Shown in pieces: positions 3,626 through 35,699 of a DNA stretch of 36,569 bases. The stretch covers positions 1-36,569 of the forward strand of contig JAHEYG010000026.1 in the NCBI GenBank assembly GCA_023251725.1, written 5' to 3'. Numbering within the stretch: position 1 is the first letter of the stretch; each line of letters begins with the position of its first letter. The notes beneath the pieces are model-generated. The model had not been told where the DNA came from. It did not search any database and worked only from the letters and a program-made list of their open reading frames with translations. A program made the position numbers and the translations under genes. Source of the stretch: Sphingobacteriaceae bacterium (lineage in GTDB: Bacteria; Bacteroidota; Bacteroidia; B-17B0; Aurantibacillaceae).

Positions 3626-4345
3626 TCACAAAATAGCTAACTTCTTTTCAATTTCGGGCAACGAATTTATTAATTGCTCAAACGATGCAATTACAAAATA
3701 TTTTTCCTGAATAATATCTGTTCGGTAATTGGTGTTTAAAATAGTTTCAACATTAAAATTTATTTTTTTGGATTTTTCACTTAAAGCGAAAGTAGTTTCT
3801 CCAATAGAAGATAAAATTCCGGCACCGTAAATTCTTAATCCAGATTTTTCTTTTATCAGTCCAAACTCAATCGTAAACCAGTAAATTCTTCCAAGCAATT
3901 CTATGTATCTCGCATTATTTATATTTTTTAATGCCAAATCCCCAATGCCTTTAAAAAAATTGCAATACGTTTTATTAGTCAATAAAGGCGTGTGCGCAAA
4001 AACATCATGAAACATATCGGGCTCTTCTAAATAATCGAGCTGCTGCATATTTCTTAACCAGCAAGTAGTAGTGAATTTTTTCTGCGACAAAAATTCGAAA
4101 AAAGATTTTTGTACGCTAATGTTTGGCACTGTATACAAGGCCCATCCCGTTAGCTCCTTTAGAATTTTATTTACCTCCTTAAAATCCGGAATTTTATCGT
4201 AACGGAAATCAATTACTTCAAGAGCGGTTAAAAAATCCGCGGAAGCGTAATCTTTTAAAACCTTCATCTGACGTTTAAATAAAATTTCCCACACTTTAAA
4301 GTCTTCTTCGGTGTAGTTCTTGTAAATCTGAATGGTTGGTCGCAT
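3626..4345 (-). CDS. phhA: Phenylalanine 4-monooxygenase (phenylalanine hydroxylase)
   Basis: It is an iron- and tetrahydropterin-dependent enzyme converting phenylalanine to tyrosine. The 239 residues correspond to the bacterial single-domain form, without the ACT regulatory domain of animal enzymes. The iron ligands are visible: H113 and H118 in EEPDMFHDVFAHTPLL, and E160 in YWFTIEFGL. The segment RIYGAGILSSIGE is also typical of the family. The gene lies about 80 bases after a leader ORF and a terminator hairpin on the same strand, which suggests control by transcription attenuation through Phe/Tyr-tRNA supply. If Tyr codons cause the stall, the enzyme would be expressed when tyrosine is short, which suits a tyrosine-making role. 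It is convergent with the cysC unit. Confidence 0.95.
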   Translation of the reverse strand: MRPTIQIYKNYTEEDFKVWEILFKRQMKVLKDYASADFLTALEVIDFRYDKIPDFKEVNKILKELTGWALYTVPNISVQKSFFEFLSQKKFTTTCWLRNMQQLDYLEEPDMFHDVFAHTPLLTNKTYCNFFKGIGDLALKNINNARYIELLGRIYWFTIEFGLIKEKSGLRIYGAGILSSIGETTFALSEKSKKINFNVETILNTNYRTDIIQEKYFVIASFEQLINSLPEIEKKLAIL

Positions 4346-4364: not shown

Positions 4365-4397
4365 TAAAATAAAAAAGCCGAATCTTTCGGTTCGGCT
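4365..4397 (-). terminator. Intrinsic terminator of the putative phhA attenuator
   Basis: Read on the minus strand, arms AGCCGAA (4397-4391) and TTCGGCT (4382-4376) pair and are followed directly by a T-run (4376-4371) and more T-rich sequence. It lies between the leader ORF stop (4423) and the phhA start (4345), the position of an attenuator terminator. It could also end read-through from the persulfide dioxygenase gene. Confidence 0.85.
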
Positions 4398-4422
4398 GGT
4401 TGAAAATTACATTGAAATTAAA

Positions 4423-4506
4423 TTAGCGGTGTAATAAACAATACGGCATCGTTCCGAATGAATTTAGGGAACGATAATAATAAAATGTATTGTTGGTGAT
4501 TGGCAT
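4423..4506 (-). CDS. Putative Phe/Tyr leader peptide upstream of phhA
   Basis: This is a 27-codon ORF, ATG at 4506-4504 and TAA at 4425-4423. It begins MPITNNTFYYYRS and has F-Y-Y-Y at residues 8-11, then another Phe (16) and Tyr (21). Six of 27 residues are Phe or Tyr, the amino acids that phenylalanine hydroxylase consumes and makes. It is followed by a hairpin and an intrinsic terminator before phhA. The ATG falls roughly at the start expected from the TAnnTTTG promoter just upstream, so the message may be leaderless. The peptide itself probably has no function beyond regulation. Confidence 0.7.
   Translation of the reverse strand: MPITNNTFYYYRSLNSFGTMPYCLLHR
4448..4475 (-). promoter_or_regulatory. 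Leader hairpin (segments 1-2 of the putative phhA attenuator)
   Basis: ATCGTTCC (4475-4468 on the minus strand) pairs with GGAACGAT (4455-4448) around a 12-nt loop. The 5' arm begins at the last of three consecutive Tyr codons, so a ribosome stalled there would cover it. That frees the 3' segment, whose UUCGG (4458-4454) can pair with CCGAA in the terminator 5' arm. This is the 1-2, 2-3, 3-4 layout of trp-type attenuators. The 2-3 pairing I can see is only about five base pairs. Confidence 0.65.
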
Positions 4507-4510
4507 GAGA

Positions 4511-4540
4511 CAAATGTAAAAAGAATTATTTAATTGGCAA
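4511..4540 (-). promoter_or_regulatory. Bacteroidota-type promoter for the phhA leader
   Basis: On the minus strand TTG (4540-4538) is followed after 19 bases by TACATTTG (4518-4511), matching the Bacteroidota consensus TTG...TAnnTTTG with its usual spacing. Transcription would begin about 4505. The -33 element lies just before the stop codon of the upstream persulfide dioxygenase gene. Confidence 0.75.
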
Positions 4541-4548
4541 GAAATATT

Positions 4549-5991
4549 TTAAAACCAGCTCAGCGGGTTCCAGGAAAGTTTTTTTTCCGATTTTTTTTGA
4601 GAAGGACAATCAAAAGTAGTAGTTGGAATGTTTGTTTTTTGAATGGCCGCAAAACCTCCCGCAATATCTACCAATTTATTAAAACCCCGTGCTTTTAAAA
4701 TAGAAGCAGTAATCATACTTCTATAACCGCCCGCGCAATGAATGTGATATTCTTTGTTCTTATCGAAAGAGTTGGTCCATTCGTTAATAAAATCGAGCGG
4801 CTGATTTTTTACATCTTTAATGTGATGCGCCTGATACTCGCCCGGTTTTCTAACATCCAAAATATTTAAATTTGGATTTATACAAGTAGAAAATTCTTCA
4901 GCACTGATGGATTTAATATGGGAGATTTTTTTTCCTGCTTTTTTCCACGCTTCAATTCCGCCATTTACATATCCCAAACAATTATCATATCCCACTCTGC
5001 TCAATCGCATTACCACTTCTTCTTCTCTTCCTACGGGCGATACTAAAATTAGAGCTTGTTTTAAATCGGTAATTAAAGCTCCTACCCATGGTGCAAACTG
5101 ACCATCAATCCCAATAAAAATCGAATTAGGAATATGTTCTTTAGCAAATTCGAGCGGTTTACGTACATCTAAAATAATAGCATCGTTATTATTTACTAAT
5201 TCTTCAACTTCATTTGCGTTTAAAGCTTTATTTCCTTTTTGCATTACTTCTTCAAAAGAAGAGTAACCGTTTTTATTTAGCATTGCATTTTTTGCAAAAT
5301 ATTGCGGCGGCGGTAAAATTCCGGTAGTTAATTCTTTTACAAAATCTGCTTTTGAATTTATTACCAAAGCGTAATTTTTCTGTTTTTGATTTCCTAAGGT
5401 ATCAAATGTTTCTTTGCTCATGTTTTTTCCGCAGGCCGAACCGGCTCCGTGTGCTGGATAAACAATTACATCATCGGGCAAAGATTTTATTTTTTTCTGT
5501 AATGAATCAAATAGCATCGCTGCTAAATCATTTTGTGTTAAAGCGCTTTTAATAGCTAAATCCGGGCGACCAACATCACCAATAAATAAAGTATCGCCGG
5601 TAAAAATGCAGTACGGTTTTTTATTTTCGTCGAGTAACAAGTAAGTCGACGATTCTAATGTGTGACCGGGGGTATGTAAAACTTTAATGGTAATTTTCCC
5701 TATTTTAAATTCCTGGCCGTCTTTTGCAATGTAACTTTGGTAAGAGGTTTCGGCATTAGGGCCAAAAACAATTTGTGCTCCGGTTTTTTTTGAAAGATCA
5801 ACATGACCCGAAACAAAATCCGCATGAAAATGCGTTTCGAAAATATATTTAATTTTTACATTGTCTTTTTGCGCACGGGAAATATAAGGATTGGTTTCCC
5901 GCAAAGGATCGATGATGGCGGCTTCACCTTCTGAACTAATGTAATAAGCGCCTTGGGCGAGGCAACCCGTGTATATTTGTTCTACCAACAT
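4549..5991 (-). CDS. Persulfide dioxygenase-like metallo-beta-lactamase protein with two rhodanese domains
   Basis: The likely role is oxidation of glutathione- or low-molecular-weight persulfide to sulfite, in cytoplasmic sulfide detoxification. The 480 residues hold an MBL domain (about 1-240) with THFHADFVSGH (H54, H56, D58, H63), HTPGHTLES (H106, H110), GDTLFIGDVGRPD (D133) and YPAHGAGSACG (H181), the persulfide dioxygenase pattern. Two rhodanese domains follow (about 255-355 and 362-455). The second keeps the active Cys, C419 in CAGGYRS. The first has VSPVGREEE in that loop, without Cys, so it is probably structural. This layout matches CstB/PDO-rhodanese fusions. It starts immediately after the stop of the TauE/SafE gene (TAA then ATG with no gap), so the two are one operon. 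Confidence 0.88.
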   Translation of the reverse strand: MLVEQIYTGCLAQGAYYISSEGEAAIIDPLRETNPYISRAQKDNVKIKYIFETHFHADFVSGHVDLSKKTGAQIVFGPNAETSYQSYIAKDGQEFKIGKITIKVLHTPGHTLESSTYLLLDENKKPYCIFTGDTLFIGDVGRPDLAIKSALTQNDLAAMLFDSLQKKIKSLPDDVIVYPAHGAGSACGKNMSKETFDTLGNQKQKNYALVINSKADFVKELTTGILPPPQYFAKNAMLNKNGYSSFEEVMQKGNKALNANEVEELVNNNDAIILDVRKPLEFAKEHIPNSIFIGIDGQFAPWVGALITDLKQALILVSPVGREEEVVMRLSRVGYDNCLGYVNGGIEAWKKAGKKISHIKSISAEEFSTCINPNLNILDVRKPGEYQAHHIKDVKNQPLDFINEWTNSFDKNKEYHIHCAGGYRSMITASILKARGFNKLVDIAGGFAAIQKTNIPTTTFDCPSQKKSEKKLSWNPLSWF

Positions 5992-6810
5992 TTAGCTAAG
6001 GATGAGTTCTTTTATTATTACAAAGATACCTACAATTAAGGTAAACCACCCGAAAGCGGGCTTGAGTTTTTGTGACGAAACTTTAGCTGAAATTGCATTT
6101 CCAACGAGTACTCCTACTATACAAATTCCTGAAATACTCAATAAAAAGTTCCATTCGATGGTTATATTGCTGAAATTGCCTGTAAATCCTATTAATGAAT
6201 TTAGAGCAATAATGCATAATGAAGTGCCTATTGCTTTTTTTAAGGGAACGCGAATAAAAAACATTAAAACAGGAACGATAATAAAACCGCCGCCGGCCCC
6301 GATGAAGCCTGTAATAAATCCAACTAAAATTCCTAAAGTAATAACGAATGGTAATCGCATTGGTGTTTTTGCAAACTCGTCCCACATCACATCGCCAACA
6401 GGATTATTTTTACTTTTCCTAATCATTCTGTAAGAAGAGGCGAGAATTAAAACAGAGAACAAACACATGACCACTAATTGTTTGCCGGCTTCAAAACTTC
6501 CAATGGTAAAAAAAACATTTGGTAAAACAGGGATAAGAAATTTACGCAAACAAAAAACAGTTATCAACGAAGGAATGGCAAATTGAACAAGCGATTCAAA
6601 ACTTATTTCGCCTTTTTTAATTACAGAGAATGCGCCGAACAAGGAAGTAATTCCAACTATAAATAACGAGTAACCGGTGGCCGTGTCAATAGGATAATGC
6701 AATAAATACACCAATACCGGTACACCCAAAATAGAACCGCCGCCACCAATTAATCCCAATACAAGACCAATAAGCAAAAATAAAATATAGGCTAAATAGG
6801 GTTCAAACAT
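5992..6810 (-). CDS. TauE/SafE-family membrane exporter (sulfite export likely)
   Basis: This 272-residue polytopic inner-membrane protein has about eight hydrophobic segments. The two family repeats start with LIGLVLGLIGGGGSILGVPVLVYLL near the N-terminus and LVGFITGFIGAGGGFIIVPVLMFF near the middle. The family exports sulfite, sulfoacetate or related anions. It is the first gene of a two-gene unit with the persulfide dioxygenase, whose product is sulfite, so export of sulfite is the natural inference. A TAnnTTTG element lies just upstream (6824-6831). Confidence 0.88.
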   Translation of the reverse strand: MFEPYLAYILFLLIGLVLGLIGGGGSILGVPVLVYLLHYPIDTATGYSLFIVGITSLFGAFSVIKKGEISFESLVQFAIPSLITVFCLRKFLIPVLPNVFFTIGSFEAGKQLVVMCLFSVLILASSYRMIRKSKNNPVGDVMWDEFAKTPMRLPFVITLGILVGFITGFIGAGGGFIIVPVLMFFIRVPLKKAIGTSLCIIALNSLIGFTGNFSNITIEWNFLLSISGICIVGVLVGNAISAKVSSQKLKPAFGWFTLIVGIFVIIKELILS

Positions 6811-13426: not shown

Positions 13427-16411
13427 TTAAACTTTAATCACCTTTTGTTTTAATCTTGTCGAGGTGTTTTCTCTGTCTAAAGTAGGCAATCGTTCCATTT
13501 TTGTAACTTCTATATTTAAAAAATCAAATTCTATCATTACTTTCCCAAATAATTTATAACAGCCGGGGCCTTTAAAGGGATATTGTTTTGCGGAAGGCGG
13601 AAAATGTACAGTATCAATCCACATCCCTTCGCTGTCTAAAAATGTTCCGAAATACATGCGGTCGCCTTTGCTGGTGGAAGTATGTTTTACATTTACGAGA
13701 TAGCCGATTATCTCTACATGTTTATTTGCAAATTGTTTTAATTCTGCGGCGGTTAAATTAAAAGCAGGTGTTTCACTTAATAAATTAAATGGCGAGGTGA
13801 GTGAAAAGCCGAGTAATTCTATTTCATCAAAAGCATCGTCGTACCAGTTATCAGTTAATTCGGGTAATTTAAATTTTCGCACTTCAATTTCAAAAAGTTC
13901 TTTGCCGACTTTCGGTTTTTTTATTGGGGAAATAAGCGAATGTGCTTCCCATAATAATTTTTTTTTATTTTTTTTGGTAAAACGTAAAGCCCCGACTCTT
14001 ATTAATAACCGTATTTGTTCAATGCTCGGATTAACACGCTTTACAAAATCAGGTAAATGTTTGAAGGCGCCGTTTTTTTCGCGCTCTTCTAAAATACTTC
14101 GAACTAACGGTGTCTCCACCTCCCCAATCATATTTAATCCTAAAAAAATATCTTTTCCTTTAACCACACACAAATACTCACTGTGGTTTACGCAAGGGGG
14201 CTCTATGTTTGCACCATGCAGCCGCGCTTCGTGTATGTACAATTCCATTCGGTAAAAACCACCGCCGTTATTTAATGTGGCTACCATGTACTCAATGGGA
14301 AAATACGCTTTTAAATAAAGTGCCTGATAACTTTCTACAGCGTAACTGGCCGAATGTCCTTTCGAAAAAGCAAAATTGGCAAAGCTTTCTATTTGATTCC
14401 ATATATCATTAATGGTTTTTTCTTCGTAGCCTTTTCCCCTACAATTATTAAAAAACTTTTCGCTTACTTCATTAAATTCGTTACGCTTTTTAAATTTCCA
14501 CGACATGCCCCGCCGCAAATAATCTGCTTCTGCCAATGTTAATCCTGCAAAAAAATGCGCCACTTTAATTACGTCTTCCTGATATACCATTACGCCATAC
14601 GTTTCTTCCAGTAAATTATATAACTCCGGAATTTCTTTTCTTGCTTTTTCGCGCAGCTCAACATTTCTAAAACGTAAAATGTATTCGCGCATCATGCCGC
14701 TTTTTGAAACACCCGGACGAATAATTGAACTCGCCGCTACCAGTCGCAAATAATCATCGGCCTGTAATTTTGCCAGCAACATTCTCATAGCGGGCGATTC
14801 AACATAAAAACAACCAATGGTTTTTCCTACACGCAATAAATCTTTTACTTTTTGGTCGCTCGTAAATTTTTTGATGTCGTGAATGTCAATTTCTATTCCG
14901 TTATTTTTTTGAACAATTTCTACGGTATCTTTTATTTTTCCCAAACCGCGCTGACTCAAAATATCAAATTTATACAAACCAATATCTTCGGCCTCCAGCA
15001 TACTAAATTGTGTAGTAGGATACCCTTTTGGCGGCATAAATGTTGCTGAGTACGCCGTAATGGGTTCTTCCGAAATTAAAATACCACTCGAGTGAATGCT
15101 TAAATGCGCCGGGAAACCATGAATAAGTTTACTGTAATTTAAAACCAGCCGGCCAATATCATCTGTATCTTTTGGGTGCTGCACTTTTTGTAACCTATCA
15201 ATTTCCTGCGCGGGTAAGCCGAAAACTTTTCCTAACTGTCTGGTTACCGCGTCACTCTGAAAAGTATTGTATGCGCCCAACAAAGCCGCTTTTTTATCGT
15301 TACCAAATCTTCTAAAAATATAATCGGTAATATCGTCGCGGTCGGTCCACGAAAAATCAATATCAAAATCGGGCGGATTGGTGCGGAACGGATTAATGAA
15401 ACGTTCAAAATATAAATCGAGTTCAATGGGATCGACATCGGTAATGTTTAGTAAATACGCCACTATGCTATTGGCACCACTTCCTCTGCCAACGTAAAAA
15501 TAATTTTTGTGGCGTGCATAGTTAATAATATCCCAGTTAATTAAAAAGTAGGAAGCAAAATGCATTTCAGCAATGATGTCGAGTTCTTTTTGAAGTCGTT
15601 CCATTACAATGTGGTTGGCATTTTTATAACGGTACGGTAAATTTTTGTAGCATTTGCGTTTTAATAATTCTAAATCAGACGAAACGCTATTGGTAAAATG
15701 TTTTAAATTTTTATTGGCAAATTTTCCGAAGGTAATTTCAATGTTGCAATCGTTTAAAATAAATTCGGTATTAATTATTATTTGCGGATATTCTGCGAAA
15801 GTTTTATACAATTTATCTTTAGAAGGCATTATTTCGTCGGGATGCGTTTGCTCATCGGACGAAAGCTTACTTAGCAGGGTATTTTTATCAATGGCACGAA
15901 GCAAACGGTGCGCGTTAAAATGTTTTTTTTGCGCGAAGGTTACGGGCTGGAGCACTACTAATTTTTTTAAATTGTTTTTGGCGGGAGAAAACTGCAGTTG
16001 CGATAATTCTTTGGAGGAAATACCAATGAATTCATTTTCACGAAGTGTTTTTCCCTTGTAACAAGCAAACGGATAAATAATATATGCGTGATTAAATTCA
16101 GGCGCTTCGTCTTCAAATTTTTCGCCGCTGTGTAAATGTTCGCTAAGATGTTCGTTGAGTTCTTTAAATCCCAAATTATTTCTGGCAATACCAATGTACT
16201 GTTGTTTTATTCCGTTTCTGAAATCAATTCCCAAAATAGGTTTTAATCCCATTTCTACAGCTTCTTTCACACCATAAATACAAGCCGAAGTATTATTAAT
16301 ATCGCTCAGCACAAAACACGAATAACCTTTTTGCTTTACTTCATCCAGCAACTCATCTGTAGAAAAAGTTCCGTAGCATAAACTGTAATATGTATGGCAG
16401 TTGAGTAACAT
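13427..16411 (-). CDS. Error-prone DNA polymerase III alpha subunit (DnaE2-like)
   Basis: This is a C-family replicative-type polymerase of about 994 residues, shorter than replicative DnaE, and is likely to act in translesion synthesis with the adjacent DinB. The N-terminal PHP domain starts MLLNCHTYYSLCYGTFSTDELL; the first metal-site His of the usual HxH is Asn here. The palm holds NPPDFDIDFSW with the catalytic Asp residues, followed by GAYNTFQSDAVTRQLGKVFGLP. The finger and clamp-binding middle is conserved (YVESPAMRMLLAKL, GVMVYQEDVIKVAHFFAGLTLAEADYLRRGM, FSKGHSASYAVESYQALYLKAYFP). An OB-fold ends the protein. I choose the ATG at 16411, where the PHP domain begins; the ATG at 16480 would add 23 residues encoded by a perfect palindrome. 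It lies 52 bases after dinB. Confidence 0.9.
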   Translation of the reverse strand: MLLNCHTYYSLCYGTFSTDELLDEVKQKGYSCFVLSDINNTSACIYGVKEAVEMGLKPILGIDFRNGIKQQYIGIARNNLGFKELNEHLSEHLHSGEKFEDEAPEFNHAYIIYPFACYKGKTLRENEFIGISSKELSQLQFSPAKNNLKKLVVLQPVTFAQKKHFNAHRLLRAIDKNTLLSKLSSDEQTHPDEIMPSKDKLYKTFAEYPQIIINTEFILNDCNIEITFGKFANKNLKHFTNSVSSDLELLKRKCYKNLPYRYKNANHIVMERLQKELDIIAEMHFASYFLINWDIINYARHKNYFYVGRGSGANSIVAYLLNITDVDPIELDLYFERFINPFRTNPPDFDIDFSWTDRDDITDYIFRRFGNDKKAALLGAYNTFQSDAVTRQLGKVFGLPAQEIDRLQKVQHPKDTDDIGRLVLNYSKLIHGFPAHLSIHSSGILISEEPITAYSATFMPPKGYPTTQFSMLEAEDIGLYKFDILSQRGLGKIKDTVEIVQKNNGIEIDIHDIKKFTSDQKVKDLLRVGKTIGCFYVESPAMRMLLAKLQADDYLRLVAASSIIRPGVSKSGMMREYILRFRNVELREKARKEIPELYNLLEETYGVMVYQEDVIKVAHFFAGLTLAEADYLRRGMSWKFKKRNEFNEVSEKFFNNCRGKGYEEKTINDIWNQIESFANFAFSKGHSASYAVESYQALYLKAYFPIEYMVATLNNGGGFYRMELYIHEARLHGANIEPPCVNHSEYLCVVKGKDIFLGLNMIGEVETPLVRSILEEREKNGAFKHLPDFVKRVNPSIEQIRLLIRVGALRFTKKNKKKLLWEAHSLISPIKKPKVGKELFEIEVRKFKLPELTDNWYDDAFDEIELLGFSLTSPFNLLSETPAFNLTAAELKQFANKHVEIIGYLVNVKHTSTSKGDRMYFGTFLDSEGMWIDTVHFPPSAKQYPFKGPGCYKLFGKVMIEFDFLNIEVTKMERLPTLDRENTSTRLKQKVIKV

Positions 16412-16424
16412 TTTTTGTTTGCAA

Positions 16425-16451
16425 CTTGATGTTCCAATTTGGAACATCAAG
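16425..16451. promoter_or_regulatory. 27-bp perfect palindrome between dinB and dnaE2-like genes (candidate SOS-type operator)
   Basis: The arms CTTGATGTTCCAA (16425-16437) and TTGGAACATCAAG (16439-16451) are perfectly complementary around one central T. The palindrome is the main feature of the 52-base gap between the dinB stop (16464) and the preferred dnaE start (16411). It has no T-run, so an operator is more likely than a terminator. The core GTTCC-N5-GGAAC is the kind of site bound by a dimeric repressor; which one is unknown. Confidence 0.6.
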
Positions 16452-16463
16452 ATTTCATTGTTT

Positions 16464-17648
16464 TTAACTTGTTTTTCCATTGAAGGGATTAAAATTATGG
16501 TGTTTTATTCCCATGCCTGCTGCCCGTTGTATCGCCTCTTTACCATATCGCTTTCTCAATTTATCCATTACCTGATACAATTGCATTTGTTCAATCGCAT
16601 CATCAAATAAATCGAATTGGTAATTGCCTTGTATTAAATGACTGAAACGTATTCCCACTAAACGAATAAGCATACGCTTTTGAAAAAGTTTATTAAATAA
16701 TTCTTTTACTCTATCTATGAGCACATGGTCTAAAGAAGTATAAGGAATACGCATTTGCATGGTATAAGTATTAAAATCGGAATAGCGTATTTTTACTGTT
16801 ACACAGGCGGTGAGTTTTTCTTCGCTTCGTAATTGAAAAGTAAGTTTCTCTGTCATACTGATGAGTACCGAATTTAAATAAGTCATATCAATGGTATCTT
16901 TTTCAAAAGTGCATTCGGTTGAAATGGATTTACGTTCGCTATATTGCTCCACCGGACTGTTATCAATACCATTGGCTTTTTTCCATATACCGATGCCGTT
17001 TTGTCCGAGCACCTGTTCCATAAGTTCTATGGGCATCTCCTGAACGGTTTTCACTTTTTCGACACCCATGCCTCTTAGTAATTGGTAAGTTTTGTCTCCT
17101 ACCATTGGAATTTTTTTTATTGATAGCGGTGCTAAAAAACCTTTTTCGGTTCCAAATGGAATTTCTTTGTGACCGTTAGGTTTCGCTTCGCCTGTTCCTA
17201 CTTTCGCTACAGTTTTATTGGTAGATAACGCAAAAGATATGGGCAATCCGGTTTCTTTAATTATTTTTTCGCGGAGTTCTCTGGCGGCGGCATAACACCC
17301 AAAAAATTTATCCATTCCCGTAAGGTCAATGTAAAATTCATCAATGGATGTTTTTTCATATAAGGGAACATTTTCGTGAATGATGTCGGTAATTACATTG
17401 GAGAAATAACTATACCGTTCGTGATCGCCTCGTTTAATAATAGCTTGTGGACATAATTGCCGTGCCATTTTCATAGGCATGGCCGAATGTATGCCAAATT
17501 CTCTTGCCTCATAGCTGCAGGATGCAACAACGCCTCTGTCGCTGGTTCCTCCTACCAATATAGGTCTACCATTTAAAGAACTGTCGAGCAAACGTTCTAC
17601 CGATACAAAAAATGTATCTAAATCCATGTGTGCAACTGTACGGTTCAT
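16464..17648 (-). CDS. dinB: DNA polymerase IV (Y-family, DinB)
   Basis: This is a translesion polymerase of 394 residues from the ATG at 17648; an upstream ATG at 17681 adds only 11 unconserved residues. The palm catalytic residues are D9 in HMDLDTFFVSVE and D103/E104 in KTSIDEFYIDLTG. YEAREFGIHSAMPMKMARQLCP, SFALSTNKTVAKVGTGEAKPNG and the helix-hairpin-helix IKKIPMVGDKTYQLLRGMGV follow. Near the C-terminus QFDLF (344-348) fits a beta-clamp-binding motif. It is the first gene of a pair with the DnaE2-like polymerase, an arrangement resembling the mutagenesis cassettes (ImuB-DnaE2) of other bacteria. Upstream are about 700 bases without a clear gene. Confidence 0.94.
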   Translation of the reverse strand: MNRTVAHMDLDTFFVSVERLLDSSLNGRPILVGGTSDRGVVASCSYEAREFGIHSAMPMKMARQLCPQAIIKRGDHERYSYFSNVITDIIHENVPLYEKTSIDEFYIDLTGMDKFFGCYAAARELREKIIKETGLPISFALSTNKTVAKVGTGEAKPNGHKEIPFGTEKGFLAPLSIKKIPMVGDKTYQLLRGMGVEKVKTVQEMPIELMEQVLGQNGIGIWKKANGIDNSPVEQYSERKSISTECTFEKDTIDMTYLNSVLISMTEKLTFQLRSEEKLTACVTVKIRYSDFNTYTMQMRIPYTSLDHVLIDRVKELFNKLFQKRMLIRLVGIRFSHLIQGNYQFDLFDDAIEQMQLYQVMDKLRKRYGKEAIQRAAGMGIKHHNFNPFNGKTS

Positions 17649-17714
17649 TTTTAATAAAAAAATAACAATGCATTTCCCCAATCTCTATAAAAAATTACAA
17701 AAACAATACCGATA

Positions 17715-18365: not shown

Positions 18366-18438
18366 TGATCCCGCTGGGATTCGAACCCAGGACCCTTACA
18401 TTAAAAGTGTAATGCTCTACCAGCTGAGCTACGGAATC
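18366..18438 (-). tRNA. tRNA-Lys (anticodon TTT)
   Basis: The 73-nt gene folds as a full cloverleaf. Acceptor GATTCCG pairs with CGGGATC (one T-G pair). The D arm is GCTC-AGCTGGTA-GAGC. The anticodon stem TTACA/TGTAA holds the loop CTTTTAA, giving anticodon TTT (Lys). The T arm is CTGGG-TTCGAAT-CCCAG. The discriminator is A, and CCA is not encoded. Confidence 0.97.
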
Positions 18439-27941: not shown

Positions 27942-30101
27942 TTAAAATCTTATTCCAATAACACAAACGTCATCCACTTGTTCCAAATTTCCCTTCCATG
28001 CATTGAAAATGGTGACGAGATTTTCTTTTTGTTGAGCAGGTGAGAGGGATTCATTTTGCAACATTTCCTTTAAAGGTTTATACTTAAACTTTTTCCCCTT
28101 TTCACCTCCGAACTGATCGGCGAAACCGTCGGTAAAAAGAAAAATGGAATCTCCTTTTTTTAATTCTAAGGTATGTGTGGTAAACGGTTTTGGGTGTTCT
28201 GTTTTTCCAATGGGTTGTTTGTTGGCTTTAATTTCTTTTATTTCGCTGTTTTGTAAATACCACAACGAATTATTGGCGCCGGCCCAATATAAAGTTGTAA
28301 GTTCTTCTGTTGATTTTTGATTTACATCTTTTGATTTTGTAATGGCCGCGAGCGAAATATCCATTCCGTCTTTTACATCGGTATCGCTTTTAGCAAAAGT
28401 TTCAAGAACCAATTCTCTGGTTTTATCAAGTATTTTTCCGGGATCTGTTATTCCGAATTCGTGAACACTTCTATTTAGGGCATTGGAACACACCAGCGAC
28501 ACCATAGCACCCGGAACGCCATGTCCGGTACAATCGGCAACGGCAATCAGAATGCAGTCGGCAGTCGGTAGTTGGCAGTTGTTTTTTTCTAACTGCCTTC
28601 TGCTTTCCGTTTCCTCCCAACTGATTTTTTCCATCCAATAAAAATCTCCTGCCACAATGTCTTTGGGTTTATAAAAGATGAAACTTTCGGGTAAATGTTC
28701 TTTAACGAAATTATCGGGTGGCAATATCGCTTCCTGCAATCTTTTAGCGTACGTAATAGAATCGAGAATTTCCTTTTGTTTAACTTCAACTAAATTTTTT
28801 TGTTCTTCAATTAATTTTTTTTGTTTGGCGGTAATTCTAAGGCGAGTGAAAACAAAAAAAGCAAATAACATTACCAACACCAATCCTCCGGCGGTAGAAT
28901 AACTTATTATTTTTTGTTTTTGTTCTTTTTCATGGGATATTGCCATTTCGTTATCGTGTTCTTTTTCATCGAGCGCTTTTTGTTTTTCATAAGCGTATTG
29001 CATCTCCTGCTTCATCATCCCCTGTTTATTTTCGTTGCTTAAAATACTATCTCGCATAAGGATATACAGTTTATGCATTTCAAGAGCCTCTTTAAACTGT
29101 CCGGTTTTCTGAAAGCTTTCAAATAAAATGCCACTTGCTGTTTTGGCGTCGGCTGCAGCTCCTACTTCCTGTGCAATTGATAATGCTTTTTTGCAATAAG
29201 AAATGGCTTTTAAGAGGTCACCTTTTTTCTGATACATGTCTCCAATACCTATTAGTGTTGAGCCAACACCTATTTTGTCTCCCATTTCCTCTCTTAGTTT
29301 TAAACTTTTGTTATAATACTCAATGGCTTTTGCATAATCGCCCTGCGAAGAATATACGCCTCCAATATTGCCAATAGTTAAAGCGGCTCCAATTTTATCT
29401 TTACCTGATTCTTGTATTTTTAGGGCTTGCTCATAATACTCTTTTGCTTTTACCAAATCGCCGTAGGATTTATAAAGCGCCCCTAAATTATTATAACATA
29501 AAGTGATGTTTTGTTCGTAGCCAATTTCAATACTCAATCTTAAACTTAAGGTATCGTAACTCAAAGCTTTTTCGTAATCGGCCAGCGTATAATAAATCAG
29601 TCCAATGTTACCCAGCGAAATAGCAACGCCTCTCGTATCCCCAATTTCCTCCTGAATTTTTAAACCACGGCTATAATAATCAATTGCTTTTACATAATTA
29701 GCTTGCTCGTTATAAACAAGGCCAATATTATTAAATGTGGAAGCTACATTTTTTTTATTTCCTATTTCTTCAAATAATTTTAGGGCTTTTAAATAATAAT
29801 CTATTGCTTTTGCGTTGTTACCCCGCATAGCGAGTGTTATACCTTGCAAAGAGAGCGCAATAGCCTGATATTTTTTTAATCCTTTTTTAAGTGAGTAATC
29901 GTATTGTAAATGCGCATAATAAAAAGCACTGTCGGGTTTAGAATATAAATAGCCATGAAGCACAATAACGGCCATCGATTTTATACGGTTGGTGTCAGAT
30001 TCCTGAGGGTTGTTCCATACTTTTAAAAGGCTGTCGAGGTTTACCTGCGCTGTTCCTGCCAGAGCATTAAAAAAAAATAATATAGATAAAAAGAGTTTCA
30101 A
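27942..30101 (-). CDS. TPR-repeat membrane protein with SpoIIE/PP2C serine phosphatase domain
   Basis: This 719-residue signalling protein has a TTG start, a signal peptide (KLFLSILFFFNALAGTAQ), and six or more tetratricopeptide repeats (about 40-340, for example KAIDYYLKALKLFEEIGNKKNVASTFNNIGLVY). A transmembrane helix near residue 400 (GGLVLVMLFAFFVFTRLRI) and a coiled-coil linker ending DSITYAKRLQEAILP follow. A SpoIIE phosphatase domain (about 465-719) carries AGDFYWMEK, VADCTGHGVPGAMVS, DGMDISLAAI, LFTDGFADQFGG and DDVCVIGIRF, whose aspartates bind the metals. Residues about 493-516 are an extra loop encoded by heptamer repeats. It is likely to dephosphorylate an antagonist-type protein; the SiaB/SiaC genes at the right end are candidates for the same circuit. 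Confidence 0.92.
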   Translation of the reverse strand: MKLFLSILFFFNALAGTAQVNLDSLLKVWNNPQESDTNRIKSMAVIVLHGYLYSKPDSAFYYAHLQYDYSLKKGLKKYQAIALSLQGITLAMRGNNAKAIDYYLKALKLFEEIGNKKNVASTFNNIGLVYNEQANYVKAIDYYSRGLKIQEEIGDTRGVAISLGNIGLIYYTLADYEKALSYDTLSLRLSIEIGYEQNITLCYNNLGALYKSYGDLVKAKEYYEQALKIQESGKDKIGAALTIGNIGGVYSSQGDYAKAIEYYNKSLKLREEMGDKIGVGSTLIGIGDMYQKKGDLLKAISYCKKALSIAQEVGAAADAKTASGILFESFQKTGQFKEALEMHKLYILMRDSILSNENKQGMMKQEMQYAYEKQKALDEKEHDNEMAISHEKEQKQKIISYSTAGGLVLVMLFAFFVFTRLRITAKQKKLIEEQKNLVEVKQKEILDSITYAKRLQEAILPPDNFVKEHLPESFIFYKPKDIVAGDFYWMEKISWEETESRRQLEKNNCQLPTADCILIAVADCTGHGVPGAMVSLVCSNALNRSVHEFGITDPGKILDKTRELVLETFAKSDTDVKDGMDISLAAITKSKDVNQKSTEELTTLYWAGANNSLWYLQNSEIKEIKANKQPIGKTEHPKPFTTHTLELKKGDSIFLFTDGFADQFGGEKGKKFKYKPLKEMLQNESLSPAQQKENLVTIFNAWKGNLEQVDDVCVIGIRF
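28554..28623. repeat. Inverted heptamer-repeat element within the SpoIIE domain coding region
   Basis: Four heptamers gcagtcg, gcagtcg, gtagttg, gcagttg (28554-28581) are followed by a T-rich spacer and then complementary-type heptamers aactgcc, ttctgct, ttccgtt, tcctccc (28591-28618) and aactg. GGCAGTT (28574-28580) pairs with AACTGCC (28591-28597). It encodes roughly residues 493-516, including CQLPTADC, between the YWMEK and ILIAVADC segments that are normally separated by only a few residues. The frame is kept. Confidence 0.8.
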
Positions 30102-32908: not shown

Positions 32909-32925
32909 TATTTTAAATTATTTAT
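32901..32925. terminator. AT-rich hairpin between convergent genes
   Basis: ATAAATAAT (32901-32909) and ATTATTTAT (32917-32925) are perfectly complementary around a 7-nt loop and overlap the ends of the cytochrome and TPR genes. It is all A/T, so it is a weak candidate for a bidirectional terminator. Confidence 0.3.
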
Positions 32926-34273
32926 TTAGTTCATTTAAATTTCTTTCTAGATATTTTTCCGAAGGCAATAGAGCTGTTTGAATTCGCTTAGCGTAATGTA
33001 TACTATCTAAAATTTCTTTTTGCTTAACCTCAATAATTTCTTTTTGTTTTGTTATTTCAATATTCGCTTTTTGTTTTTGTAAGAAACTTCGGTAAGCAAA
33101 TACTGCAAAAACAATCACTAAAATTAATATTCCGAACACGCTCCATATAATTATTTTTTGCTTTTTACTTTCTGCGAATGAAACTGCTTCTTTTTTTTCC
33201 TGTTCTAATTTTGTTTCTGCTTCCTTTTTTTCGAAATCAAAATTCATCTGAGAACGTACAATTTGTTTGGTGTTTTCTTCATTGGTAAGGCTATCTCGTG
33301 CAGATATGTAAAATTTGTAATATCGTAATGACTCTTTCCAATTAGTTTCAGACTCTTCTAATTCACATAAACCTAAATAAGCGTCACGACAAATATCATT
33401 CGCCTGAATTTGTTTTGCGATAGAAATAGTTTTATTAAAATTAATTCTTGCTTCCGATTTTAAACCTATACGTGTATTTAAAATACCAAACGAAAGATAA
33501 CAATAAGCGATTCCGTTATCATCTTCGTTTTCTTCAAATATTTTAAGTGCTTTATGATAATAAGGTATGGCTTTATTAAAAAGTTCATTCGAAGTTGGAG
33601 ATTTTTTTAATGAAATAGCCTGAGCTTCATAAACGCTTCCAATATTTACAAACAAACTCGCCATTCCATAATTATCCGATAATTCTTCATGAATTTTTAA
33701 AGCGTCGAAATAAAATTCTAATGCTTTATCAAAATTATTTTGCTTCTGATAAACACTTCCGATATTATCAAGATTAATGGACTTCCATTTTTTATTTCCT
33801 GTTTCTTCGTTGAGTTTAATAGCTTTAAAATATTGTGCAAGGGCTTTGTCGGGATCATTTGTTATACTATAAAGGTTTCCAATATTATTAAGTGCTGCGG
33901 CTTGTCCCTTTTTGTCGCCTATTTCATTACTTAATTTTAGCGAATTAAAATATTGTATAAGCGCTTTAGGATAATTGCCTTGTTTATGAATTACAATTCC
34001 CATGTTGGAGTAGGCGTATGCCATTGCTTTTTTAATGTAGAATGACGGAACAAGAGTTTGACTGAGATCAATAACATTATTGGCGCATTGGAAGGCTTTT
34101 GTATAATTACCCGTACTTAAATATTGAAAAGTTAATAAATTAAGGGTTATAACTGTACTGCTATCATTTTTTTGACCTTTTAATAAATTCAGAAGCGAAT
34201 CGATTTTCGATTGCTGTGAAAAAATATTCGTGAAACAAATAACAATTAAAAAAATATTTATACGTCTAAGCAT
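32918..34273 (-). CDS. TPR-repeat membrane protein lacking an output domain (paralogue A)
   Basis: This 451-residue protein has a signal peptide (LRRINIFLIVICFTNIFSQQ), about seven tetratricopeptide repeats (for example KALIQYFNSLKLSNEIGDKKGQAAALNNIGNLY), a transmembrane helix at about 374-398 and a coiled coil. It ends DSIHYAKRIQTALLPSEKYLERNLNELNK. That linker precedes the SpoIIE phosphatase domain in the 27942-30101 gene, but here the protein stops and no phosphatase remains are seen downstream. The ATG overlaps the stop of the upstream paralogue by eight bases, so translation is coupled. The last 78 residues are nearly identical to the upstream paralogue. It may be a decoy, scaffold or partner for a separate phosphatase. 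Confidence 0.85.
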   Translation of the reverse strand: MLRRINIFLIVICFTNIFSQQSKIDSLLNLLKGQKNDSSTVITLNLLTFQYLSTGNYTKAFQCANNVIDLSQTLVPSFYIKKAMAYAYSNMGIVIHKQGNYPKALIQYFNSLKLSNEIGDKKGQAAALNNIGNLYSITNDPDKALAQYFKAIKLNEETGNKKWKSINLDNIGSVYQKQNNFDKALEFYFDALKIHEELSDNYGMASLFVNIGSVYEAQAISLKKSPTSNELFNKAIPYYHKALKIFEENEDDNGIAYCYLSFGILNTRIGLKSEARINFNKTISIAKQIQANDICRDAYLGLCELEESETNWKESLRYYKFYISARDSLTNEENTKQIVRSQMNFDFEKKEAETKLEQEKKEAVSFAESKKQKIIIWSVFGILILVIVFAVFAYRSFLQKQKANIEITKQKEIIEVKQKEILDSIHYAKRIQTALLPSEKYLERNLNELNK

Positions 34274-35699
34274 TTAATTTGTTTAAATTCCTTTCAATGA
34301 ATTTTTCAGAAGGTAGCAAAGCAGTTTGTATTCGTTTGGCATAACGTATACTGTCTAATATTTCCTTCTGCTTTAATTCAATAATTTCTTTTTGCTTGGT
34401 TATTTCAATGTTCGCTTTTTGTTTCTGTAAAAAATTTCTGTAAGCAAAAATGGCGAACCCAATCACTAAAAGTAAAATTCCGCTAACGCTCAGGATAATT
34501 ATTTTCCGTTTTTTGCTCTCAGCAGTTGAAACTGCCTCTTTTTTTTCCTGCTCTAATTTTGTAGCGGCTTCTTTCTTGTTAAAATCGAATTGCATTTCAA
34601 GACGAACGATTTTTTTTGTATTTTCTTCGTTAATCAAACTATCTAATAAGCTTATATATTTCTTATAATGATTCAGCGACTCTTCATACTTTCCCTTCGC
34701 CTCACATATCATAAATAAAAGTTTTTCGCATCCCACAATACACCTTAATTCTCCTATTTCGCTAGCTATTTCCTTACTTTTTTTAGCGAAAGCAAATGCT
34801 TCGGTATAGTTTTTAGATTCAAGATAAATTTTCCCCAGATTTACATAATTTAATGTACAGCCGGCTTTGTCACCAATTAATTCATCTAATTTTAAAGCCT
34901 TATATTCAAATTCAAGTGCCTTCACATAATTTTTTTGTTCACCGAAAACAGAAGCCATATTACCGTAAGATTGTGCAAGCCCTTGTTTATCGCCAAGTTC
35001 TTCTCTAATGGCAACCGCTTTATAATTGTAGTGCATCGCAGTTTCATAGCTTTTCTGATCTAAATAAATTAACGCTATGTTATTTAAAACAGTGGCATAA
35101 ATAAGGTTTTTTTTATTTGCGGATTTTTCAAAAATATATAAAGACATTAAATAATATTTTAGAGCGTTCACTTCGTCTTTCTGGTAATGGTACACCAAAC
35201 CAATATTATTATAGGGAGAAGCTTTTAACTTTGGCTCTTCTATTTTATCACAAATTGCAATAGTTTCAAAATAATATTCAAGTGCCTTGAGGTAATTTCC
35301 CTGACTGGTATAAATGCTCCCAATATTATTTAGAGTGCTTATAAGGGATTTATAATTTCCTAATTCCTTTTTAAGTAGTAAGCTTTTTTTGAAATATTCG
35401 AGCGCTCTAGGATAATTGCCCTTCGAATAATTAACCGCGCCAATATTATTAAACGCTCCGGCCTGACCTTTTTTGTAATGTAGTTTTTCGGAAAGATCTT
35501 CTGTTTTTTTGAGTTGATAAAGCGCTGTATCATAATCTCCTTTTTGAATCAGAAAGCTTGCTAGTGCAAGTCGCGCATTTACATTATTCGTATCTTCCTT
35601 AGAAATTTTTAAAACAGTTTGTAATGAATCGATAATTTTATTTTGGGAAATTCCAGAAAAAGAAACAAAAAAAATAAATATAGATAATACGCGTTTCAA
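34266..35699 (-). CDS. TPR-repeat membrane protein lacking an output domain (paralogue B)
   Basis: This 477-residue protein starts with TTG at 35699, as no upstream ATG is in frame. It has a signal peptide (KRVLSIFIFFVSFSGISQ), about eight TPR units (RALEYFKKSLLLKKELGNYKSLISTLNNIGSIY and similar), a transmembrane helix from about residue 400, then a coiled coil ending DSIRYAKRIQTALLPSEKFIERNLNKLNA. As in the downstream paralogue, there is no SpoIIE domain after the linker. The gene is first in a coupled pair (overlap ATGCTTAG) and divergent from the SiaB-SiaC operon. The TPR parts of A and B differ more than their C-termini, so sensing surfaces probably diverged while the linker was kept. Confidence 0.85.
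   Translation of the reverse strand: MKRVLSIFIFFVSFSGISQNKIIDSLQTVLKISKEDTNNVNARLALASFLIQKGDYDTALYQLKKTEDLSEKLHYKKGQAGAFNNIGAVNYSKGNYPRALEYFKKSLLLKKELGNYKSLISTLNNIGSIYTSQGNYLKALEYYFETIAICDKIEEPKLKASPYNNIGLVYHYQKDEVNALKYYLMSLYIFEKSANKKNLIYATVLNNIALIYLDQKSYETAMHYNYKAVAIREELGDKQGLAQSYGNMASVFGEQKNYVKALEFEYKALKLDELIGDKAGCTLNYVNLGKIYLESKNYTEAFAFAKKSKEIASEIGELRCIVGCEKLLFMICEAKGKYEESLNHYKKYISLLDSLINEENTKKIVRLEMQFDFNKKEAATKLEQEKKEAVSTAESKKRKIIILSVSGILLLVIGFAIFAYRNFLQKQKANIEITKQKEIIELKQKEILDSIRYAKRIQTALLPSEKFIERNLNKLNA

Follow-up and report, generated by a model that had tools for sequence, protein, structure and literature searches.

The window analyzed here, a continuous stretch of 36,569 nucleotides, carries on its minus strand the gene phhA (3626-4345), which encodes a protein of 239 amino acids and is the gene that we consider to be regulated at this locus. 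The protein matched the NCBIfam model NF008877 (E = 2.2e-81; 272.8 bits vs. a cut-off of 247), scored slightly below the cut-off of TIGR01267 (254.6 vs. 264.75 bits), and had PDB 1ltu as its best solved-structure match (E = 1.8e-58). On the basis of the family model and of the similarity to a solved enzyme across the catalytic domain, it is a short-type bacterial phenylalanine 4-monooxygenase. The gene upstream of the phhA leader lies on the same strand and ends at 4549. The region 4549-6810 (minus strand) encodes a metallo-beta-lactamase/double-rhodanese protein, with a TauE-like membrane protein ahead of it, and we take both to be probably involved in sulfur metabolism; these two proteins, which precede the leader on the same strand, gave only family matches below cut-offs. 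Elsewhere on the minus strand, inspection by eye revealed a DnaE-like polymerase alpha subunit (1017 aa) overlapping a DinB/UmuC-like polymerase (405 aa) at 13427-17681, as in damage-tolerance cassettes. Three TPR-like proteins with coiled-coil linkers were also noted by eye at 27942-30101 and 32918-35699; the first has a SpoIIE/PP2C-like end, and its two neighbors share the linker and stop before that domain.

The original prediction had described, ahead of phhA on the minus strand, a promoter, a 27-codon open reading frame (ORF) with Phe-Tyr-Tyr-Tyr at residues 8-11, a hairpin, a segment UUCGG and a terminator, and all of these were confirmed base for base. The Bacteroidota-type promoter (4511-4540) consists of TTG at 4540-4538, a spacer of 19 nt and the -7 box TACATTTG at 4518-4511. 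The 27-codon leader ORF (4423-4506), MPITNNTFYYYRSLNSFGTMPYCLLHR, starts with an ATG at 4506, 4 nt past the -7 box. Its candidate regulatory codons are Tyr9-Tyr10-Tyr11 (TAT TAT TAT, 4474-4482); Phe8 stands directly before them, and a further Phe occupies position 17. In the putative protector (1:2) hairpin (4448-4475), AUCGUUCC at 4475-4468 pairs with GGAACGAU at 4455-4448. These arms, ATCGTTCC and GGAACGAT, are exact complements over eight pairs, and the hairpin, with 9 pairs, lies within the minimum-energy fold, its 5' arm beginning inside the last Tyr codon (4476-4474). The candidate antiterminator segment UUCGG (4454-4458) can pair with CCGAA at 4395-4391 or 4390-4386, and the intrinsic terminator (4366-4397) is composed of the stem-loop AGCCGAACCGAAAGATTCGGCT at 4397-4376 and the T-rich tail TTTTTATTTT. 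The fold of the 167-nt leader was 3.25 standard deviations below its shuffles. When both strands of the 36.6-kb window were searched, a single combination of a Tyr-rich short ORF and a terminator was found, namely the phhA leader. Searches of the window with the Rfam covariance models revealed no cis-regulatory family at the gathering score, and the sole match was a tRNA at 18366-18438.

To survey the leader in other genomes, we searched relatives and the wider class. With short and long types pooled, phhA was found in 19 of 60 relatives and in 101 of the 396 class genomes; to these we added named loci, which are the best 80 of 590 confirmed in a scan of GTDB species genomes. Upstream regions were obtained for 156 loci, and after removal of the duplicates L028, L080 and L092 there were 135 short-type and 18 long-type loci. 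Left out before counting were L008, whose contig begins inside phhA; L018-L022, which comprise a fragment and partial long-type genes; genome G276, whose phhA is interrupted by stop codons; and the short fragments from G066, G146, G165, G252 and G313. Degenerate phhA copies or fragments, interrupted by in-frame stops, were observed at G276:C4:144956-145644 and in L022 (G011:C43:43668-43793). A leader was defined as an ORF of 9-48 codons in which a stretch of five codons contained a minimum of three Tyr, or three Tyr/His with at least one Tyr among them. A stricter rule accepted Tyr only (three in five codons) and required a terminator, within 350 nt, and the shuffle control was run on this strict rule only.

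In this set, in which the named loci are the best 80 of 590 confirmed, 70 of the 135 distinct short-type phhA loci have a Tyr or Tyr/His leader followed by a terminator, and none of the 18 long-type aromatic hydroxylase loci does; the latter are 18 of the long-type matches. Among the 65 short-type loci without a detected arrangement, nine have a leader-like ORF and no detected terminator. Under the strict Tyr-only rule, 56 of 137 real phhA upstream regions were positive vs. 1 of 1,370 dinucleotide-shuffled regions (ten replicates of 137). When residues were ranked by how often three in five codons were clustered ahead of a terminator at the 137 loci, Tyr came first (56) and Leu next (25); for four in five codons, the counts were 37 for Tyr and 11 for Leu. 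Examples of the leader peptides are MKKMNTSFYYYYLLSVMKR (L007), MTNMNSKYYYYYYYRITPFGVGVVCS (L060, Fulvivirga sediminis), MNFTHNTYYYYYQAPKGIGNGSVMHMM (L061, Marivirga sericea) and MHLFSQSYYYYYPTCQPTGFGNGRVCTTASEQTQ (L091, recorded as Solirubrum puertoriconensis). The Tyr runs, the promoter box, the terminator and their position thus recur before phhA in both near and distant Bacteroidota; the related genomes in the set do not count as independent cases. Two further loci, L150 and L151 (G201 and G345), have a strong terminator hairpin approximately 50 nt before phhA and no Tyr leader, and their genomes possess TyrA.

An alternative reading of the arrangement in the window is that the terminator simply belongs to the upstream gene, that the ORF between the two genes arose by chance and that phhA has a promoter of its own downstream of the terminator. 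The metallo-beta-lactamase/rhodanese gene is indeed co-directional and ends at 4549, so that the terminator could end its transcript. However, an ORF with a Tyr run, the box and the terminator are again found ahead of phhA at loci with a different upstream gene, a chance ORF together with a terminator was nearly absent from the shuffled regions, and the leader codons track the contents of the operon, as described below. We consider this explanation highly unlikely.

Of 68 leaders, 41 have a -7 box that matches in at least 5 of 6 positions and stands 4-5 nt upstream of the ATG; such a box preceded 6 of 439 control ATGs. In leaders with several in-frame ATGs, the ATG with the best box was chosen; among those with exactly one possible ATG, 27 of 48 had the box. 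In the rest of the leaders, the box is poorer or is spaced differently. A -7 box placed 4-5 nt ahead of the ATG suggests that the message is probably leaderless, as had been raised as a possibility in the original prediction, and the mRNA probably begins with the leader ATG or one or two bases away from it, the exact start being deduced from the promoter position. Leaderless mRNAs are otherwise few in this phylum: 5' UTRs under 10 nt account for 3.7% in B. thetaiotaomicron, and leaderless mRNAs account for 5.5% in F. psychrophilum according to a study that describes the group as being without Shine-Dalgarno sequences (PMC9723704).

The leader of the window had originally been interpreted as a Phe/Tyr attenuator, and its Phe8 beside the Tyr run, its Phe17 and the occurrence of some Phe in 27 of 47 Tyr-type leaders might suggest that both the substrate and the product of the enzyme are sensed. 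However, only 4 of the 47 have a Phe immediately ahead of the Tyr run, and these leaders contain on average 4.6 Tyr vs. 0.8 Phe. Moreover, since the enzyme uses up Phe, there would be no metabolic logic in inducing it when Phe is scarce. Phe as a co-signal was rejected on these codon statistics, and dual sensing seems very unlikely; the tyrosine part of the earlier interpretation stood and the phenylalanine part did not. Judged by its codons, the amino acid sensed by the leader is Tyr, not Phe.

His/Tyr-mixed leaders, such as MNPTPRTYVHHSYHLLH, VYHYHYYY and AHHYYYYY, are common in Cyclobacteriaceae and Roseivirga. In these groups (L051, L054, L058, L073, L074, L084 and others), phhA was seen by eye to head an operon with hisH-hisA-hisF-hisI; family models identified hisH, hisA and hisF for L084 and hisH and hisA for L054. 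Several Cyclobacteriaceae loci also have a DAHP synthase gene (by family model for L084) and a TrpA-like gene (by eye) just upstream of phhA. At least two His within 7 codons were found in 22 of 23 leaders with hisH downstream vs. 3 of 47 without it (Fisher's exact test, p = 6e-14, kinship ignored). In the Fulvivirga locus L060, whose leader has seven consecutive Tyr, the genes after phhA encode an aminotransferase and prephenate dehydrogenase. Among the hisH-bearing loci, 14 of 38 (duplicates included) have no leader with a detected terminator, and six of these have an MNPTPRT-type ORF alone. The match between leader codons and operon products, with His added to Tyr where hisH is present, is hard to explain except by attenuation. 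Queuosine is a tRNA modification common to the His, Tyr and Asn tRNAs; sensing of queuosine-modified tRNA by the His/Tyr leaders was considered and dropped, as the his genes downstream already account for the His codons. His-rich short ORFs were also found before hisG at 14 of the 18 relatives' loci with a located gene start (L173-L192; 21 examined), scored on the ORFs alone with no shuffle baseline; the ATG lies 4 nt after a -7 box in some of these leaders and at a longer spacing in others. These ORFs suggest that peptide-based attenuation is probably general here and that phhA is one of its targets.

To evaluate the RNA structures, 30 of 71 leaders were hand-picked for spread and aligned with MAFFT (alignment A2); alignment A3, with four Algoriphagus-type leaders, was used for inspection only. 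The RNAalifold consensus of the 30 leaders contained the terminator only. In all 8 of its 8 consensus pairs, both sides had changed with the pair kept, in 1 to 15 of the 30 sequences each. Comparison of the upstream regions of related Bacteroidota, which had been proposed as a check of the original prediction, thus revealed compensatory changes in the terminator in addition to the recurrent Tyr runs. The leader segment does not stay in register from one lineage to the next, and the antiterminator was therefore judged by exchange and shuffle tests, and not column-wise on A2. The antiterminator-duplex, ribosome-position, spacer-shuffle and arm-exchange tests were run on 71 leaders, with the duplicate L080 still included.

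In 40 of 70 leaders, the leader's own segment outperformed 95% of its shuffles in pairing with the 5' arm of the terminator (median fraction 0.05), and its pairing with this arm was better than that with the median foreign arm in 62 of 70. The median swap rank was 0.16, which is only moderately specific because the terminator arms resemble one another. In arm exchanges between 35 nearest-neighbor pairs, the own arm outperformed the exchanged one in 21 cases, was outperformed in 8 and tied in 6 (Wilcoxon test, p = 0.0005). With a modeled ribosome on the last clustered Tyr/His codon, the terminator 5' arm was paired upstream with a mean probability of 0.67 over the 71 leaders, vs. 0.15 with the ribosome on the stop codon and 0.35 without a ribosome. 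Shuffled spacers gave a mean of 0.46 in the stalled state; the observed value was higher in 67 of 71 leaders and significant (0.05) in only 28 of 71, so this contrast is partly unspecific. Across the family, an antiterminator that excludes the terminator is therefore supported statistically, with 40 of the 70 leaders supporting it singly. The weakness of the antiterminator in the window, which had been acknowledged from the start, was borne out: the duplex has approximately five pairs (-6.3 kcal/mol) and is matched in strength by 56% of shuffled segments and 70% of foreign arms, and 15% of shuffled spacers sequester the terminator arm equally well. Once the whole terminator is available, it is the minimum-energy fold of the window leader even with a stalled ribosome. 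With a weak antiterminator and a terminator that wins at equilibrium, the switch in the window copy must rest on kinetics or be leaky, and only kinetic competition could favor readthrough there.

Another possibility is that the phhA terminator is controlled without a ribosome, through T-box-like tRNA binding, another riboswitch or a leader-binding protein. RNA structure is present in the leader, as this would require, and nothing else was found in its favor. Rfam detected no family but a tRNA at threshold in the window, and the element conserved upstream of the terminator is an in-frame run of Tyr (or Tyr/His) codons with variable flanks, the consensus fold of the 30 leaders keeping only the terminator. 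Such non-ribosomal control appears extremely improbable.

To relate the leader to tyrosine metabolism, TyrA was counted as a match to PF02153 with E < 1e-20, and weak partial matches (approximately 20-28 bits) were ignored, including one marginally over the family cut-off in the leader-bearing genome G290 (27.7 bits). Among the 60 relatives, TyrA was found in 9, PheA (PF00800) in 11 and chorismate synthase in 58. In the genus of the window, no TyrA or PheA above the cut-off was found in eight genomes, five of which have an estimated completeness of 98-100% and of which the window's own has 75%. In the family of the window (f1, G000-G036), 33 of 37 genomes are without PheA and canonical TyrA, and chorismate synthase is present in 36 of 37; where phhA is also missing from f1 genomes without PheA and TyrA, this suggests tyrosine auxotrophy or an unknown route.

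Among 58 genomes with short-type phhA for which the upstream region was retrieved, a pure Tyr leader was present in 27 of the 39 without TyrA (26 of them with a terminator, L009 being counted as a leader without a detected one) vs. 1 of the 19 with TyrA (p = 3e-6). When counted by genus, by hand from labels and with the mixed genus g30 scored as leader-bearing, Tyr leaders occurred in 16 of 24 without TyrA vs. 1 of 11 with it (p = 0.003). His/Tyr leaders, a class defined in this tabulation by hisH downstream, were present in 5 of the 19 genomes with TyrA and 2 of the 39 without. In 10 of the 39 TyrA-lacking genomes, phhA has no such leader. At eight of these ten loci, the upstream gene runs in the same direction and ends less than 100 nt before phhA (less than 10 nt in L005 and L115, and 36-93 nt in the other six), so readthrough from upstream is possible. 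The occurrence of Tyr leaders mainly in TyrA-lacking genomes fits a role of phhA as a tyrosine source, and it looks as though phhA supplies tyrosine in the Tyr-leader genomes from phenylalanine that would mostly be taken up. Based on GapMind and mutant fitness, phenylalanine hydroxylase has been proposed to act in tyrosine synthesis in Echinicola vietnamensis, beside a dehydrogenase, and likewise in Dyella japonica and Legionella pneumophila, where the dehydrogenase was not confidently identified (PMC7311316). Echinicola vietnamensis is a member of the Cyclobacteriaceae, and its phhA leader lies outside the set surveyed here.

Taken together, it is very probable that the phhA leader is a ribosome-mediated transcription attenuator that senses charged tRNA-Tyr, with somewhat lower confidence for the window copy than for the family. 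The attenuator reading made in the original prediction is supported by the parts of the leader, their conservation at the 70 loci, the covariation of the terminator, the family-wide antiterminator statistic, the match between codons and operon genes and the link to the absence of TyrA. From these features we infer the transcription start, leader translation, stalling and tyrosine response. Transcription would start at or next to the leader ATG, and the leader ORF would be translated from a probably leaderless message by a ribosome close behind RNA polymerase. When Tyr-tRNA is plentiful, the ribosome would pass the Tyr codons to the stop codon and cover the antiterminator segment, so that the terminator would form and transcription would end before phhA. 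When Tyr-tRNA is short, the ribosome would stall on the Tyr run and cover the protector arm, the segment just downstream would pair with the terminator 5' arm, and phhA would be transcribed, with tyrosine then being made from phenylalanine. If there is no translation, the protector hairpin would leave the terminator free. The switch most likely lets the cell make the PhhA enzyme only when tyrosine is short, and the earlier proposal that low charged tRNA-Tyr allows phhA to be read fits the absence of TyrA from most leader-bearing genomes. On a broader scale, we think it likely that TyrA-less Bacteroidota form tyrosine via phenylalanine hydroxylase, as animals do, under the control of a leaderless tRNA-Tyr attenuator to which His codons are added where his genes share the operon, so that a single switch would respond to either one of two unrelated amino acids.

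The trp, his, pheA and ilv leaders of E. coli are ribosome-mediated attenuators of amino acid operons. Like them, the phhA leader combines a short ORF rich in the cognate codons, protector, antiterminator and terminator hairpins, and a biosynthetic gene downstream; unlike them, it has Tyr codons, phhA as its target, a Bacteroidota promoter, an ATG adjoining the presumed transcription start and no match to an Rfam leader. Within the same phylum, leader-peptide attenuators have been suggested for Flavobacterium psychrophilum, with new 5' elements before pheA, hisG and other genes that are present in other genera; the attenuator section of that study makes no mention of phhA, and the word 'phenylalanine' is absent from its main text (PMC9723704). 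Attenuators in front of tyrA operons, among them the pheA-hisHb-aroA-tyrA operon of Bacteroides thetaiotaomicron, have also been proposed on the basis of database predictions (PMC1173090). These likewise concern tyrosine-forming operons; they differ in lying ahead of tyrA and in that no leader codons are shown, and phhA is treated there under catabolism and PhhR (PMC1173090). In the open-access full texts, a body with most subscription journals and supplementary files outside its scope, we found no paper on phhA attenuation or a tyrosine leader, nor the phhA target, the Tyr specificity or the version with both His and Tyr. The terms 'phenylalanine hydroxylase' and 'transcription attenuation' occur together in one paper, whose title points to amino acid production in E. 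coli and Corynebacterium (PMC11802643). The mechanism seems to be classic attenuation of the trp/his type, and the target gene and the sensed amino acid seem to be undescribed.

The natural series of leaders, with Tyr only, Tyr with His, or His-rich, tracks the operon genes and provides a test set for changes in attenuator specificity. In addition, leaders whose start follows closely on the -7 box point to a way for attenuation to operate in bacteria described as having no Shine-Dalgarno sequences. Leaderless initiation has been discussed for the leader peptide of the ilvBNC attenuator of Corynebacterium glutamicum, which differs from the phhA leader in belonging to an Actinobacterium and in concerning branched-chain amino acids (PMC11857589). 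The PhhR/phhABC system of Pseudomonas aeruginosa involves the same enzyme and differs in using a protein activator with sigma-54 for catabolism (PMC1173090), whereas the phhA leader would be an RNA switch, most likely for synthesis. It would thus represent cis-acting, tyrosine-specific control of an enzyme that is often discussed as catabolic in bacteria, tied to genomes without the usual tyrosine dehydrogenase.
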